From: Haloarcula rubra
Lineage (GTDB): Archaea; Halobacteriota; Halobacteria; Halobacteriales; Haloarculaceae
Reading direction: 5' to 3'
Length of the DNA: 64,000 nt
Assembly (NCBI RefSeq): GCF_019599465.1
Contig: NZ_RKLR01000004.1
Location: 186,001 to 250,000, forward strand
This document shows positions 2,260 to 14,752 of this stretch, piece after piece. The translations under genes and the position numbers were made by a program. Position 1 is the first letter of the stretch. Each line of letters opens with the position of its first letter. Below the pieces are notes generated by a model, which saw nothing but the letters and a program-made list of their open reading frames with translations, did no database searches and was not told where the DNA came from.

Positions 2260-3270
2260 ATGATCACCGACGCCCGTGCTATCGATCCCGAGTACGTACC
2301 TCGTGACCTCCACCACCGCGAAGGTCAGATAGATCATCTTTCGTCGATACTCGCGCCATCGTCGCTCGAATATGCAGAGGATATCTGTATCTTCGGCCCC
2401 TCTGGCGCTGGCAAGACGACCGTCACGAAGTACACGCTCGGCCAGCTCGAGCGCGAGATGGTGGACCTCCGGTGGGGCTACGTGAACTGCCTCCGTGACA
2501 ACTCCGCCGGCGCGGTCGTCCATGCCTTCGCCCGCGACGTCGGTGTCGGCGCGGATCTCCGGTCGGAAGGGACGCCGACGTCGACGGTCATCCGACGCCT
2601 TCGAGACCGCGACCAGCAGTTCATCGCCGTCCTCGACGAGGTCGCCGTGATCGATGAGGAACCACTGCTGGCGTTGTACGAAATCCCGAACGTCTCGCTC
2701 ATCTGTATCACGACTGCTGAAACGGAGTGGTTGAACTCGCTGGATCAAGCCGCCGCATCACGGATGCAAAGCGCTGCCACTGTCCGACTGGAGAAGTACA
2801 GCCACTCGGAACTGGTCGACATTCTCGACGCCCGTATCGTCCACGGGCTAATCTCCTCTCGCGTCGCCGATGGTGCGATCGAACACATCGCCGACCTTGC
2901 GGCTGGCGACGCCCGGGACGGTGTCGCACTTCTCCGGCGGGCAGCGCTTCACGTCGAAAGCAATGAGATGGGTGAGCTGACTCCGGAGGTCGTCGACGCG
3001 GTCGCGGACGACGCCGAACAGGATATCCACCAGCGTCGTGTCCGGTCGCTAGGGACGCATCAGCGGCTGCTGTTTCGCATCATCGACGAGGCGGGCGAAA
3101 TCGACGGCGGGACGCTTCACGCTCGATACGAAGAGCGGGCAGACTCGCCAAAATCCCAGTCGTCACGGAGTCGGTATCTCCGGCACCTCGAACGGTACGA
3201 CCTTATCGAATCCGAGGGGTCGACCCGAAATCGGTGCTACCGCTCGGTCTCGACTTTTACCCAATCGTAG
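2260..3270 (+). CDS. cdc6: Orc1/Cdc6-type AAA+ replication initiator
   Basis: The 336-residue protein has a Walker A motif (GPSGAGKTT, residues 46-54), Walker B (FIAVLDEV, 121-128), a sensor-like ITTAE segment, and a C-terminal winged-helix region from about residue 265. The opening PEYVPRDLHHREGQ is the usual Orc1/Cdc6 N-terminal signature. These proteins bind origin repeats and load the MCM helicase. It is somewhat shorter than main chromosomal Orc1 proteins (about 400 residues), like the accessory copies found on plasmids and integrated elements. Short direct repeats follow its 3' end. Whether it initiates replication here or is an island passenger cannot be told from sequence. Confidence 0.9.
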   Translation: MITDARAIDPEYVPRDLHHREGQIDHLSSILAPSSLEYAEDICIFGPSGAGKTTVTKYTLGQLEREMVDLRWGYVNCLRDNSAGAVVHAFARDVGVGADLRSEGTPTSTVIRRLRDRDQQFIAVLDEVAVIDEEPLLALYEIPNVSLICITTAETEWLNSLDQAAASRMQSAATVRLEKYSHSELVDILDARIVHGLISSRVADGAIEHIADLAAGDARDGVALLRRAALHVESNEMGELTPEVVDAVADDAEQDIHQRRVRSLGTHQRLLFRIIDEAGEIDGGTLHARYEERADSPKSQSSRSRYLRHLERYDLIESEGSTRNRCYRSVSTFTQS

Positions 3271-3439: not shown

Positions 3440-3709
3440 ATGTCACGTGCAACGACGCCAGACCGCATCGAGCGCGAGAAAGTCGAGGGCAAGCAGGCGA
3501 CAGCGTACTTCTACCACACCGACCCCGACTACACCGCGCGCATCGAGGTCGAGCGCGAGGAGCGCTGGGAGTTCGGCATCGACGACAAGGCCGTCGCGAC
3601 GCTGCTGACGACGACCGACGTGGCTGACGACCTCCTCGTGGAGCCGGATATCCCCGAATGGCTGGTTGAGTCGCTGCACGGGTTCGGCATCGAGGAGGTT
3701 GAGGCGTGA
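3440..3709 (+). CDS. Small acidic hypothetical protein
   Basis: This 89-residue ORF from ATG 3440 has the acidic composition and codon use of haloarchaeal genes. The product mixes predicted beta segments (ATAYFYHTDPDYTARIEVE, WEFGIDDKAVATLLTTT) with a helical C-terminus. No signal peptide, membrane segment or cysteine is present. I do not recognise a function. It stands alone between the initiator gene and the repressor-like gene, and small proteins of this kind are common cargo of haloarchaeal mobile elements. Confidence 0.6.
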   Translation: MSRATTPDRIEREKVEGKQATAYFYHTDPDYTARIEVEREERWEFGIDDKAVATLLTTTDVADDLLVEPDIPEWLVESLHGFGIEEVEA

Positions 3710-3843: not shown

Positions 3844-4131
3844 CTATTCGTTTGGATCAGGCTCTTCCCGGAGATCGGCCTCGCCACGGAGGTAGGCCTT
3901 CCCTTTCTCTGTGATTGCGAAGTATCTCCCCTCACCGGGAAGTACTCGAATAAGTTCCGCAGATTCAAGCTTTGGGACGCGACGAGTGACGGTCTTATAC
4001 GAGATTTCAATCCCTCGATCCTCGAAATTGTTAGCAATCCCGCGAAGATTGTGACCGGCACCAGTATCATCCAGAAATTCAAGGATGACATCGTCGCTTC
4101 CGGTCATCCACGGTGCTCGGTGCCGAGACAT
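3844..4131 (-). CDS. PhiH1-repressor-like winged-helix regulator
   Basis: The product, read from ATG 4131, is 95 residues and opens MSRHRAPWMTGSDDVILEFL. This matches the haloarchaeal family named after the phage PhiH1 repressor. A winged helix follows, with a recognition-helix region (ISYKTVTRRVPKLESAELI) and a wing ending in YFAITEKGKAYL. A longer in-frame start at 4200 was rejected because it would translate through the adjacent operator-like palindromes. The gene faces small zinc-ribbon genes and an integrase, so it probably represses its own promoter and perhaps the divergent cargo. The family assignment is good; target and inducer are inferred. Confidence 0.85.
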   Translation of the reverse strand: MSRHRAPWMTGSDDVILEFLDDTGAGHNLRGIANNFEDRGIEISYKTVTRRVPKLESAELIRVLPGEGRYFAITEKGKAYLRGEADLREEPDPNE

Positions 4132-4172
4132 AGAATCTTGGCCGAAGAGCCAGCTAAAACAATCTTCGGTGC

Positions 4173-4208
4173 TAGACACACTGTCCTTTCTATTAGACAT
4201 AGTGTCTA
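4173..4208. promoter_or_regulatory. Two tandem palindromic operators for the divergent repressor
   Basis: TAGACA-N3-TGTCTA is a perfect inverted repeat at 4194-4208. A second copy with one changed arm, TAGACA-N3-TGTCCT, lies at 4173-4187. Their starts are exactly 21 bases apart, two helical turns, so two dimers could bind side by side on one face. The sites sit 42-77 bases upstream of the repressor-like gene at 4131 and before the divergent zinc-ribbon genes. Confidence 0.65.
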
Positions 4209-4353
4209 TTCTTTACCCCAAATACTAATAGTAATGGCCAATCATTTGGACACACAGGTCGGCGCGACGCTCCTTCGGGGGTCGTACTCTCGTGAAAACG
4301 GATGCGACGCCGTGTCACCAGCACGGGCGTCGCGTCGGTCTACCTCAGACCGT

Positions 4354-4575
4354 ATGACTATCAACGAAACGGGGCTTGAAAAACGCCCCGCACGGTTCAC
4401 GACAGAGTCGATTGATAACCGAGCGGTTTCCAGTCCGTATCCATCGACTAGGGGCTACTGTCCGATCTGTGGCGAGCCCATCGATGGATTCGACGCCGAC
4501 GGGCGCACAACCATTACCCTGTGTGGCCACAGCGCCGCTGAGCGAACGCGAGACGAGATTTTGGAGTCAGCATGA
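4354..4575 (+). CDS. Small zinc-finger protein
   Basis: From ATG 4354 the product is 73 residues with a CPIC motif followed by a CGH, a possible single zinc site in the C-terminal half. An in-frame ATG at 4234 would add 40 residues, but the only TATA-like sequence (around 4221-4230) is too close to 4234 for that start to be transcribed, and the added segment is less gene-like. The stop overlaps the next ATG (ATGA), so the two genes are translationally coupled. Proteins with one or two CxxC knuckles are typical small cargo of haloarchaeal viruses and integrative elements. Specific function is unknown. Confidence 0.6.
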   Translation: MTINETGLEKRPARFTTESIDNRAVSSPYPSTRGYCPICGEPIDGFDADGRTTITLCGHSAAERTRDEILESA

Positions 4576-5015
4576 CTAGGAACACTTCGATAGAGGCGCG
4601 TAGCGACGACGAACTAGAGACCGTGCTGGCGTGCCCGGAGTGCGATACGACAGGTATCCGATCGACGGTTCGAGACACGACCGAGCACGGCTACGCGTGT
4701 CGACACTGTGGCGCGACGTTCGACGTGCCGGTCGAGCGCCAACCGTACGACCAGTCCGGTCTGCCCGGCGTCGCCGGCCGACTGGACCGGATGGACCCCG
4801 ACGACGTCGACGACCAGATGGTCACCGACGGCGGGCAAGAGCTGGTCATTGTCTCGTCGTCGGCCGGCCGCCGAGGGAACACGACGTACCACCGGAGCGA
4901 CCAGTGTGGGTACGTCCAGCGGATGGCTAAGACGACCGAGAAACCACTGGCCGCACTCGCTGGTCACTACGATCCGTGTTCGAGTTGTGCGGTCGGCGAC
5001 GTCGACGAGGAGTAG
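4572..5015 (+). CDS. Zinc-ribbon protein of unknown function
   Basis: This 147-residue protein overlaps the preceding gene by four bases. Residues around 20-45 form a classic zinc ribbon (CPECDTTGIRSTVRD then CRHCGATF). The C-terminal part holds His and Cys residues (YHRSDQCGYVQ and CSSC) that may form a second metal site. A ribbon followed by a His/Cys-rich tail suggests nucleic-acid binding, but I cannot name the family. It is codirectional with the integrase about 200 bases downstream and probably belongs to the same mobile element. Confidence 0.72.
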   Translation: MTRNTSIEARSDDELETVLACPECDTTGIRSTVRDTTEHGYACRHCGATFDVPVERQPYDQSGLPGVAGRLDRMDPDDVDDQMVTDGGQELVIVSSSAGRRGNTTYHRSDQCGYVQRMAKTTEKPLAALAGHYDPCSSCAVGDVDEE

Positions 5016-5216: not shown

Positions 5217-6395
5217 GTGACCGACGGCGATGACGAGGATGTCGAGGAGCTCCTCGACGAGATGAGAGACATGCTGGGCGAGGACGACCTTGACAGCACA
5301 CCTCCTAACGAGGCCTTCGACCTCTGGATACAACAACAGGATAGGGCAGAGTCAACTCTCCAATCCTACCAGTACCGTGTCAAGCCGTTCCTGGAGTTCC
5401 TGACCGAGAAGGGTATCGACGACCTGAGTGAGCTGACAACGCGAGATGTCAAGGAGTTCGAGGCCCGGCGTTGGAACTCAGATCTCCAGCGGACGACAAT
5501 AAACAACCAGTTCGGGACGCTACGGCAGTTCCTCAAGTACTGCCGAGATCTGAATGCGGTGTCGGATGATGTCGTTGCAGCACTGGATGTTCCAGACTTG
5601 TCGAAGGAACAGCGCGTCAATACGGTAAAACTGGTTACGGACCGGGCTCAGGAGATTATCGAGAATCTGGACCGGTATCGGTATGCCTCACGTGAGCACG
5701 TTCTGACGTTGCTACTCTGGCGTACGACAGCTCGTATCGGGACGCTCCAGTCACTGGATCTGGACGACGTCTACCTAGATGATGAGGATCGTGAGAGGCT
5801 CCGAGCGGAGTTAGAGGGCGACGGATACGCCCCGCACGTCGTCGAGAACATCCTCAACGAGTCGTCATTACCGTTTCTCTTCCCGCGACACCGTCCTGAG
5901 AGTGAGACGCCGTTGAAGAACAAGGAGGATGGCGAGCGCGTCATCAATATCGCGGACTGGGTGGCTGAGGTCATCCAGGGCTACATACAGGTGAACCGTG
6001 ACGAGGTGACCGACGACTACGGACGGGAGCCGCTGCTGACTTCACAGAAGGGATCGGGACGACTGTCGAAGTCGGCGATGCGGAACTGGATTTACATCTT
6101 GACTCAACCCTGTGAGTTCGGTGGCCCGTGTCCGCACGACCGCGATCCGGAAGAGTGTGAGGCTCGCGAGCACGGTCACGGCTCGAAGTGTCCGAGTTCA
6201 CGGAGCCCGCATAAGATTCGAACTGGCGCGATTACGCATCACAGAGACCACGGCTGGCCGGTTCCAGCCATTTCGGAGAAGGCGAATACGAGTGAGAAGC
6301 TCATCGAGGGAGTGTACGACCAGCCGGAGCAGCTGGTCCGTGGCGCTTCTCGGCGTGAGCATCTTGACAAACTGGACGATTCGGACGAACCTTGA
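5217..6395 (+). CDS. Tyrosine recombinase (phage-type integrase)
   Basis: From GTG 5217 the product is 392 residues. The start is preceded by GAGGAGG nine bases upstream and removes an unlikely Arg-rich extension. An N-terminal SAM-like core-binding domain (about 30-125) precedes the catalytic domain. Catalytic residues are visible: Arg173 (TARIGTLQSL), His332 and Arg335 (PHKIR), a His/Trp site near HHRDHGW, and Tyr367 (EGVYDQ). Four cysteines at about 299, 305, 314 and 325 make a zinc-finger-like insertion just before the HxxR motif. The enzyme cuts and rejoins attachment sites to move an element in or out of the chromosome. All key residues remain, so it may be active. Confidence 0.92.
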   Translation: MTDGDDEDVEELLDEMRDMLGEDDLDSTPPNEAFDLWIQQQDRAESTLQSYQYRVKPFLEFLTEKGIDDLSELTTRDVKEFEARRWNSDLQRTTINNQFGTLRQFLKYCRDLNAVSDDVVAALDVPDLSKEQRVNTVKLVTDRAQEIIENLDRYRYASREHVLTLLLWRTTARIGTLQSLDLDDVYLDDEDRERLRAELEGDGYAPHVVENILNESSLPFLFPRHRPESETPLKNKEDGERVINIADWVAEVIQGYIQVNRDEVTDDYGREPLLTSQKGSGRLSKSAMRNWIYILTQPCEFGGPCPHDRDPEECEAREHGHGSKCPSSRSPHKIRTGAITHHRDHGWPVPAISEKANTSEKLIEGVYDQPEQLVRGASRREHLDKLDDSDEP

Positions 6396-7012: not shown

Positions 7013-7090
7013 GGTCGCTCCCGTCTCAGTCCCACTTCGCACCGGGGTTGGTCACGGCGCCGTTGGCGGCCGACCCGAAGTCACGGTAGT
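7013..7090. repeat. Displaced copy of the ilvD 3' end
   Basis: This 78-base segment matches 7201-7278 at 75 of 78 positions, with changes at 7050, 7083 and 7088. Read on the minus strand it encodes the last residues of IlvD ([19 protein letters not shown]) and the stop, plus 13 bases beyond it. Two of the three differences are synonymous. It is detached from any ilvD reading frame. Confidence 0.9.
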
Positions 7091-7200
7091 CCACCTTTTT
7101 CGTCGTTGGGTGCGCTCACGGTGTTCGCGCACCACGCCTCGAAAAACGTGGGCGAAAACGACGGGACGCTCACTCAGTTCGCGTCCCGTGGAATCGGTCG

Positions 7201-7278
7201 GGTCGCTCCCGTCTCAGTCCCACTTCGCACCGGGGTTCGTCACGGCGCCGTTGGCGGCCGACCCGAAGTCGCGGTGGT
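7201..7278. repeat. ilvD 3' end, matching partner of the displaced copy
   Basis: This is the in-gene copy of the 78-base direct repeat. It spans the final codons and stop of ilvD and 13 downstream bases. The two copies are 188 bases apart, start to start, with 110 bases of unrelated sequence between them that holds no gene. Confidence 0.9.
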
Positions 7279-14506: not shown

Positions 14507-14561
14507 GTCCTGCAGCCATACGGGTTCGCATCGCCCCCTCCCGAACGACGGCGCCACGCCC

Positions 14562-14579
14562 ACGGAGCAGTTGCTCCGT
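14562..14579. repeat. Perfect 8-bp inverted repeat, possible hairpin
   Basis: ACGGAGCA-GT-TGCTCCGT lies in the 246-base gap between the lipoprotein and the cupin gene. It could form a short hairpin after the lipoprotein gene or be a dimeric binding site. No T-tract follows it. Confidence 0.4.
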
Positions 14580-14752
14580 CACAGGACGTCTATCCGCCCG
14601 CTATTGGTGACGGAATCCCGATTTAGTCGGGTGTATCTCGGTCGTGTCGTGTGACAACTCTTAACAAACTCTCTAACGAACTGTACTCGGAGCGTTCGAG
14701 ACCACGTCGGGGACAGATTGCCTCGGTTCGAGCGCTCACTCGGAGGAGACCG

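Follow-up and report, generated by a model that had tools for sequence, protein, structure and literature searches.

Our comparisons point to a locus in Haloarcula rubra that we read as an immunity-type switch of a Haloarcula-like integrative element, composed of a repressor, three phased sites and a two-state leader RNA. We put the probability of this reading at roughly 0.6. It draws on evidence from sequence, namely conservation, spacing, co-change of the sites between clades, covariation on the + strand and synteny. Coordinates refer to the window, by which we mean the whole stretch of 64,000 nucleotides that was analysed (contig NZ_RKLR01000004.1, positions 186,001 to 250,000).

In the proposed mechanism, a small winged-helix repressor related to RepR of phiH1 would bind 18-bp sites of the form TG-N14-CA. 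Three such sites are predicted two or three helical turns apart, with O1 and O2 flanking a promoter box and O3 covering the start of the repressor gene itself. When occupied, they would block the basal factors at the promoter box, so that the rightward operon stays silent and the repressor limits its own level. The rightward operon would consist of the leader RNA, the zinc-ribbon genes and, probably, the integrase. Upon loss of the repressor, the rightward message would start near 4253 with the leader, whose 3' strand C has two possible partners, 5' strand A and a segment B further inside, and the two resulting folds would set the translation or the stability of the message, which has its start codon at 4354.

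The repressor and the genes it faces

3844..4200, - strand: winged-helix repressor gene, PhiH1 RepR-like, with its start at ATG 4200-4198 or at GTG 4179-4177, the conserved position
4354..4575, + strand: small zinc-ribbon gene of 73 aa, directly after the leader, an ORF with CPxC...CGH
4572..5015, + strand: second zinc-ribbon gene, 147 aa, with weak Zn-ribbon matches below cut-off
5217..6395, + strand: tyrosine integrase of the element, with Phage_int_SAM_1 passing the cut-off and a match to phrog_1 integrase, some 200 bp beyond the zinc-ribbon gene

The initial annotation had assigned the regulator to the PhiH1 repressor type, which is borne out by sequence and profile similarity to both phiH1 RepR and 3b73. 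The latter, a 'PhiH1 repressor-like protein', is the best solved relative (E 5.3e-9 with the single sequence, 5.3e-12 with a profile), and phiH1 RepR aligns to a profile of 11 homologues with an hhalign probability of 97 (E 4.6e-11). A second RepR-like trait, one of layout only, is that the gene faces a divergent message. The phiH1 record (MK002701) has the same layout, a RepR-like winged-helix protein opposite a divergent rightward message with a long leader; the start of T6 (repR) is annotated there at the repR start codon, that of T4 174 nt before the first rightward gene and that of T5 8 nt before the same gene. According to a review (PMC4284463), Rep shuts off the divergent T4 promoter, and rep and T4 are mutually exclusive. 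PMC4284463 also describes phiH1 as a virus with an extrachromosomal lysogen, in which it differs from the present element; its operator-like repeats, CTTCTCGACTTAAGGAA present twice and 22 bp apart, also differ.

At the position of 4179-4177, an ATG, GTG or TTG is found in all eight close sequences, the window included. The start at 4200-4198 is ATG in four and GTG in one of the five clade-A members and is absent from clade B. Matches to the repressor occur in 17 of 146 genomes of the family (E 1e-10) and in 131 of 391 genomes of the class (E 1e-8), and a protein scan of viral contigs found no relative of it. The Halomicrobium urmianum plasmid NZ_CP084093.1 (L124, 75.8 kb) carries four copies of a related repressor, approximately 14 and 24 kb apart, with one more on the chromosome; the plasmid copies may reflect a concatemer or an assembly effect.

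A predicted structured leader RNA

4250..4359, + strand: structured leader RNA (models R1/R2), recognized by covariation and adjoining O1
4256-4270 with 4327-4341, + strand: leader P1, strand A with strand C (model)
4310-4315 with 4321-4326, + strand: leader P3 (model)
4298-4309, + strand: leader segment B, alternative partner of C (model)
4337-4351, + strand: leader mini-hairpin (model)
4370..4390, + strand: second hairpin, CGGGGC-UUGAAAAAC-GCCCCG, just inside the reading frame

Folding 11 homologues with RNAalifold gives -31.75 kcal/mol on the + strand (26 pairs, nine with compensatory changes) versus -15.39 on the - strand (18 pairs, four compensatory), and shuffling the leader region yields z scores of -3.2 and -0.05, respectively. 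At E 1e-3, covariance model R1 locates the leader in 37 of the 146 genomes of the family (31 at E 1e-5), and three times in the window's own genome. Among 391 class genomes it matches 30, including ten from outside the family with weak matches (E no better than 3.2e-5); the 22 class genomes matched by the broader model R2 at E 1e-4 all belong to the family. The two further copies in the window's genome, at C25:2980-3086 (-) and C8:47411-47509 (+), each lie beside a different divergent gene that is winged-helix-like by eye.

In an alignment of 40 copies, 85.9% of cells are paired and 19 of the 26 pairs show changes on both sides. Covariation amounts to 0.307, compared with 0.162 for shuffled alignments and 0.04-0.08 for slid controls, the alignments being fitted to the model and the shuffles ignoring relatedness. 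The alternative pairings were compared with permuted partners in 39 of the 40 rows: strand A with C scores -23.56 against -19.06 permuted (sd 0.51), and segment B with C -11.19 against -9.92 (sd 0.29), the own value being reached in 0 of 500 permutations in either case. These two tests are not independent, because A and B resemble each other. The model's P2 is weak (74.3% of cells paired), and an alternative hairpin around GGAAAA may fit better. As for the second hairpin, a stem of at least five pairs recurs at about the same place in 29 of the 40 copies with differing sequences; the mean best stem of the region over the 40 copies is 5.5, versus 4.4 when shuffled.

Rfam 15 returned no match on the window leader (E up to 1) or at five other loci (E up to 0.1). 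A pattern scan of viral contigs picked out 41 stretches, and R1 gave no strong score for any of them (at best 18.1 bits, E 0.0027). As far as literature searches and Rfam 15 reach, the leader is an undescribed RNA family, to which the role given above is putatively assigned. A weak copy (30.2 bits, E 8.6e-8) lies on plasmid CP050018.1 of Haloarcula sp. JP-L23 (L166:5280-5389, -), directly before an annotated hypothetical gene.

A different role for the same transcript appears doubtful, in which it would not be a cis leader but a free regulatory RNA with targets in trans, such as the repressor or a host target. This role would accommodate the fact that the leader is not always followed by a zinc-ribbon frame: there are seven of 40 copies (L104-L107, L111, L114, L123) with a dissimilar frame and six more (L085, L087, L088, L090, L092, L093) with yet another frame, the folded region being kept in all of them. 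However, an ATG or GTG stands at the model's end (-20 to +12 nt) in 38 of the 40 copies, including 26 of 26 with more than 44 bits, though the chance of this is not small, and no T run is seen by eye after the second hairpin in the window. The frame after the leader measures only 36 aa in L072 and 6 aa in L073.

By eye, and on predicted folds, the T4 leaders of phiH and phiCh1 have the position and the three-helix layout of the window leader. That of phiH1 carries an inverted-repeat arm at its start (fold z -6.3 over 89 nt), has a long 5'-3' helix beginning at the annotated start point, and contains both an inner CCGUG-N7-CACGG hairpin and a GGAAAA stretch. In the Rep/ORF49 region of phiCh1 (NC_004084), there is again a divergent regulator (ORF48), and the leader folds as that of phiH1 does, with a compensatory change in P3. 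The R2 placement on phiH1 14556-14648 (+) runs end to end but reaches only 8.1 bits (E 1.5), ranking 28 of 80, and R2 did not recover the phiCh1 leader on the + strand. Our claim is therefore restricted to a likeness in position and fold and does not extend to common descent. The covariance models of the window's RNA did not recover the phiH1 leader significantly, and it was rejected as a member. Beyond the core of the leader, phiCh1 (L241, 4044-4183) and phiH1 (L240, 14557-14696) have another hairpin downstream, with covarying arms (GCGGACG/CGUCCGC and GCGGGCG/CGCCCGC).

It is unlikely that the + strand element is a feature of the DNA, such as inverted repeats for attachment, replication or protein binding, and not an RNA. 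Its GC-rich repeated arms do adjoin the integrase and a Cdc6-like gene, and three observations on the phiH1 leader also speak for it: the leader has a 12-letter string in common with the leaders described here on each strand (null maximum 11 in 60 + strand letter shuffles), it folds well on both strands (z -4.96 and -3.26), and the better R2 match within it is a short one on the - strand (9.8 bits, above the 8.1 on the + strand). In the family itself, however, the + strand cells hold 113 G-U against 31 A-C combinations, as expected for an RNA of the + strand, and both the consensus energies and the shuffle z scores given above favour that strand.

Predicted operator sites

4235..4252, - strand: O1, 18-bp candidate site TGTCCAAATGATTGGCCA, a block kept in 14 homologues and the reference of the offset profile
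4221..4234, no strand assigned: AT-rich promoter box, TTACTATTAGTATT on the - strand, at fixed spacing between O1 and O2 in 14 of 14
4203..4220, - strand: O2, 18-bp candidate site TGGGGTAAAGAATAGACA, offset +32, similarity to O1 z 7.3 over 14 homologues
4182..4199, - strand: O3, 18-bp candidate site TGTCTAATAGAAAGGACA, offset +53, z 4.3 over 14 homologues
4194..4208, no strand assigned: palindrome 1, TAGACATAGTGTCTA (TAGACA-N3-TGTCTA), formed by the right half of O2, N3 and the left half of O3
4173..4187, no strand assigned: palindrome 2, TAGACACACTGTCCT (TAGACA-N3-TGTCCT), formed by the right half of O3, N3 and TGTCTA (- strand)

The upstream regions of 14 homologues align in two blocks at constant spacing with an AT-rich box between them, an arrangement found in the window as O1 and O2 on either side of the box, which we take as a putative TATA element for one or both directions. 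Within-sequence similarity in these 14 promoters, with O1 as the reference and its place taken from the alignment, identifies conserved units of 18 bp, mostly TG-N14-CA, at offsets 0, +32 and +53. The latter two are the best-ranked offsets in each of clades A, B and C taken alone; clade D has +32 in first place and +53 in a tie for second. Three similar sites are thus spaced by whole turns across the divergent promoter, with O3 clear in clade A and the other clades having only weak half-sites at its place. All three sites of the window begin with TG and end with CA. The window is a member of clade A, where the palindromic character of O1 and O2 is poor.

A pair scan blind to the aligned blocks (spacings 24-40, 37 homologues) placed spacing 32 first in ten homologues, eight of them (L010-L017) at the aligned blocks and two (L030, L031) with a dissimilar partner site; in all five clade-A members, the O1/O2 pair fell outside the top three. 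Dyads of the form TG-N14-CA, 18 bp long, occur in 16 of 77 upstream regions, against a mean of 1.0 and a maximum of 4 in 200 shuffles, whereas lengths of 16, 17, 19 and 20 bp give 3, 5, 0 and 1. This set joins the 37 homologues to 40 from class-wide matches, with near-duplicates left in. Having imperfect dyads as its sites, the window's own region does not count among the 16, and L006 is the only clade-A member that does.

Between clades, O2 changes together with O1: similarity is 0.706 for own pairs, 0.708 within the same clade and 0.534 across clades, the true pairing ranking first of 24. For O3 the co-change is weak (0.532, 0.532 and 0.443), the true pairing again being first of 24. Where a dyad was found, its inner letters go by eye with the recognition helix of the protein: SYSTIKRR with TGACC..GGTCA, VSHPTVKRR with TGATAC..GTATCA and, in the window's clade, SYKT(V/I)TRR with TGTCY..RGACA. 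A genome-wide search for TGTCY-N8-RGACA targets gave 14 places versus seven for the reversed pattern; O3 alone lies near the element, and no clear regulon was apparent.

The initial annotation had taken the two palindromes for the operators of the repressor. It gave their letters correctly (0 and 2 mismatches) as well as the 21 bp between their starts, and its claim of phased sites holds in the form of the +32 and +53 offsets in 14 homologues. Register and number were wrong, in that homologues keep 18-bp sites at three offsets, and neither O1 nor the structured leader on its far side had figured in it. Given that O1, O2 and O3 each start with TG and end with CA, both palindromes are seams, one between O2 and O3 and the other downstream of O3. 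They were described as lying upstream of the protein, which is partly correct: palindrome 1 contains ATG 4200-4198, the start of the longest frame, and palindrome 2 contains the shared start, GTG 4179-4177. Palindrome 1 is the sole exact copy of TAGACA-N3-TGTCTA in the 4.67-Mb genome (37 contigs). With up to two mismatches, there are 50 places genome-wide, fewer than the 67 for the reversed control, and with up to three there are 11 matches in the window versus 7.3 expected. Perfect 6-N3-6 dyads number 44 in the window (block-shuffle mean 34.2). Two have a second copy 15-45 bp off with up to two mismatches, against a null mean of 0.78 and a maximum of 4 in 40 shuffles, so that the palindrome pair alone is not beyond chance in the window.

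We consider it improbable that the repressor's sites are nonetheless two TAGACA-N3-TGTCTA operators 21 bp apart. The palindromes exist exactly as written, and all five members of clade A keep the seam of O2-right and O3-left, (GACA or TACA)-N3-TGTC, so that a 15-bp seam site retains a small probability there. However, the four nearest relatives (L006-L009) lack the far half of palindrome 2, clades B-D have neither palindrome upstream of their homologues, and the dyads found family-wide are 18 bp long with TG..CA ends; as relatives do not keep the palindromes, we rejected them as the units. That another host or element protein binds the three sites while the winged-helix protein acts elsewhere is very unlikely, considering that the sites adjoin the repressor gene in the 14 homologues compared and that their letters change, by eye, with its recognition helix. 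Apart from the register and number of its sites, the lysogeny-like switch of the initial annotation is supported as a reading: a RepR-like protein faces divergent zinc-ribbon genes followed by the integrase, and an autoregulatory arrangement is the best reading of the sequence.

Context of the element

2260..3270, + strand: AAA ATPase of the element, Cdc6-like, with AAA_22 and Cdc6_lid both passing the cut-off and a match to phrog_7998
3440..3709, + strand: small element protein, 89 aa, between the AAA gene and the repressor

Thirteen neighbourhoods of relatives were compared beside the window's own, L056 being a plasmid copy of L055. An integrase match is present in all 13 (in L062 about 6 kb away), and tblastn matches were obtained for the 89-aa protein in nine, the AAA ATPase in eight and the 73-aa zinc-ribbon protein in seven. 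The last, which has no Pfam match at 0.01, also matched in five of 20 further RNA loci.

At 18 of these 20 RNA loci a divergent frame starts within 300 bp upstream; L121 has no divergent frame of 50 aa and L123 is at a contig end. Ten of these 18 frames were scanned. Seven match helix-turn-helix families (E 0.1), with three passing the curated cut-off, and the other three match nothing. The leader therefore keeps its place while the facing gene differs. L109 lies beside the same ilvD gene as the window and has an 82% identical integrase, and tblastn with the window's repressor (E 0.01) did not find its facing regulator, which suggests an exchange of the repressor cassette. At the same ilvD gene, L054 has an 83% identical integrase and a clade-B repressor homologue (65%).

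Pfam and PHROGs scans of the neighbouring proteins revealed no structural viral protein, and the identity of the element as a virus was dropped as without support. In the search for the ends of the element, the left flank of the empty site mapped to another contig. A duplicate of the ilvD 3' end lies next to the gene (7030-7090 and 7218-7278), and the stretch between the duplicates, approximately 7090-7200, recurs in many of the 32 Haloarcula-like genomes searched. Near the AAA gene are two archaeal type IV pilin-like genes (875-1348, -; 1657-2139, +), and such pairs also occur near the AAA gene in L053, L054, L112 and L113. About 1 kb before the window begins, to the left of the genes of the element, there is a second integrase-like gene (L049:12363-12959, -).

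Comparison with other systems

In the OR region of bacteriophage lambda, three phased repressor sites lie between divergent promoters. The three sites predicted here resemble it in layout, and layout alone is compared, the protein being unrelated and the promoter archaeal.

Among phage records searched by tblastn at E 0.01, the repressor matched only HHPV4 and HRPV9; phiH1 was not listed. The 'PhiH1-like repressors' of these betapleolipoviruses are distantly related to the protein, that of HHPV4 with 40.0% identity over 71% and that of HRPV9 with 33.7% over 80%. HHPV4 differs in having two adjacent repressor genes, and R1 finds no leader in it at E 0.01.

A further parallel comes from haloarchaeal proviruses, in which, according to PMC7911831, a CxxC-protein gene lies beside the integrase and is proposed to act in the temperate state. 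The likeness, drawn without sequence comparison, is that of a small zinc-type protein gene near an integrase; in that account, attP lies between the two genes, whereas here the zinc-ribbon genes precede the integrase.

Conclusions

Our best reading is that the repressor-site layer is a variant of the known RepR-type arrangement and that the leader RNA is undescribed within the reach of the literature searches and Rfam 15. More speculatively, and with rather low expectation, one may picture an ancient switch chassis common to haloarchaeal elements and viruses, in which a bistable leader RNA heading the divergent early message stays constant, whereas the immunity cassette of repressor and operators is exchanged; it would then be the RNA, and not the repressor, that forms the conserved heart of the decision, with the T4 leader of phiH1 and phiCh1 its viral form.

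RepR-type switches are the classical archaeal lysogeny system, and in the accessible portions of the literature on these switches we found no statement of the family's site code. The 18-bp TG-N14-CA rule, with inner letters that depend on the recognition helix, would provide a direct and testable one. A covarying leader that holds its place opposite differing regulators, and whose position and fold are like those of the phiH1 and phiCh1 T4 leader, would bring an RNA layer into the regulation of archaeal immunity regions. The leader RNA also offers a concrete object for mutational tests in laboratory haloarchaea.
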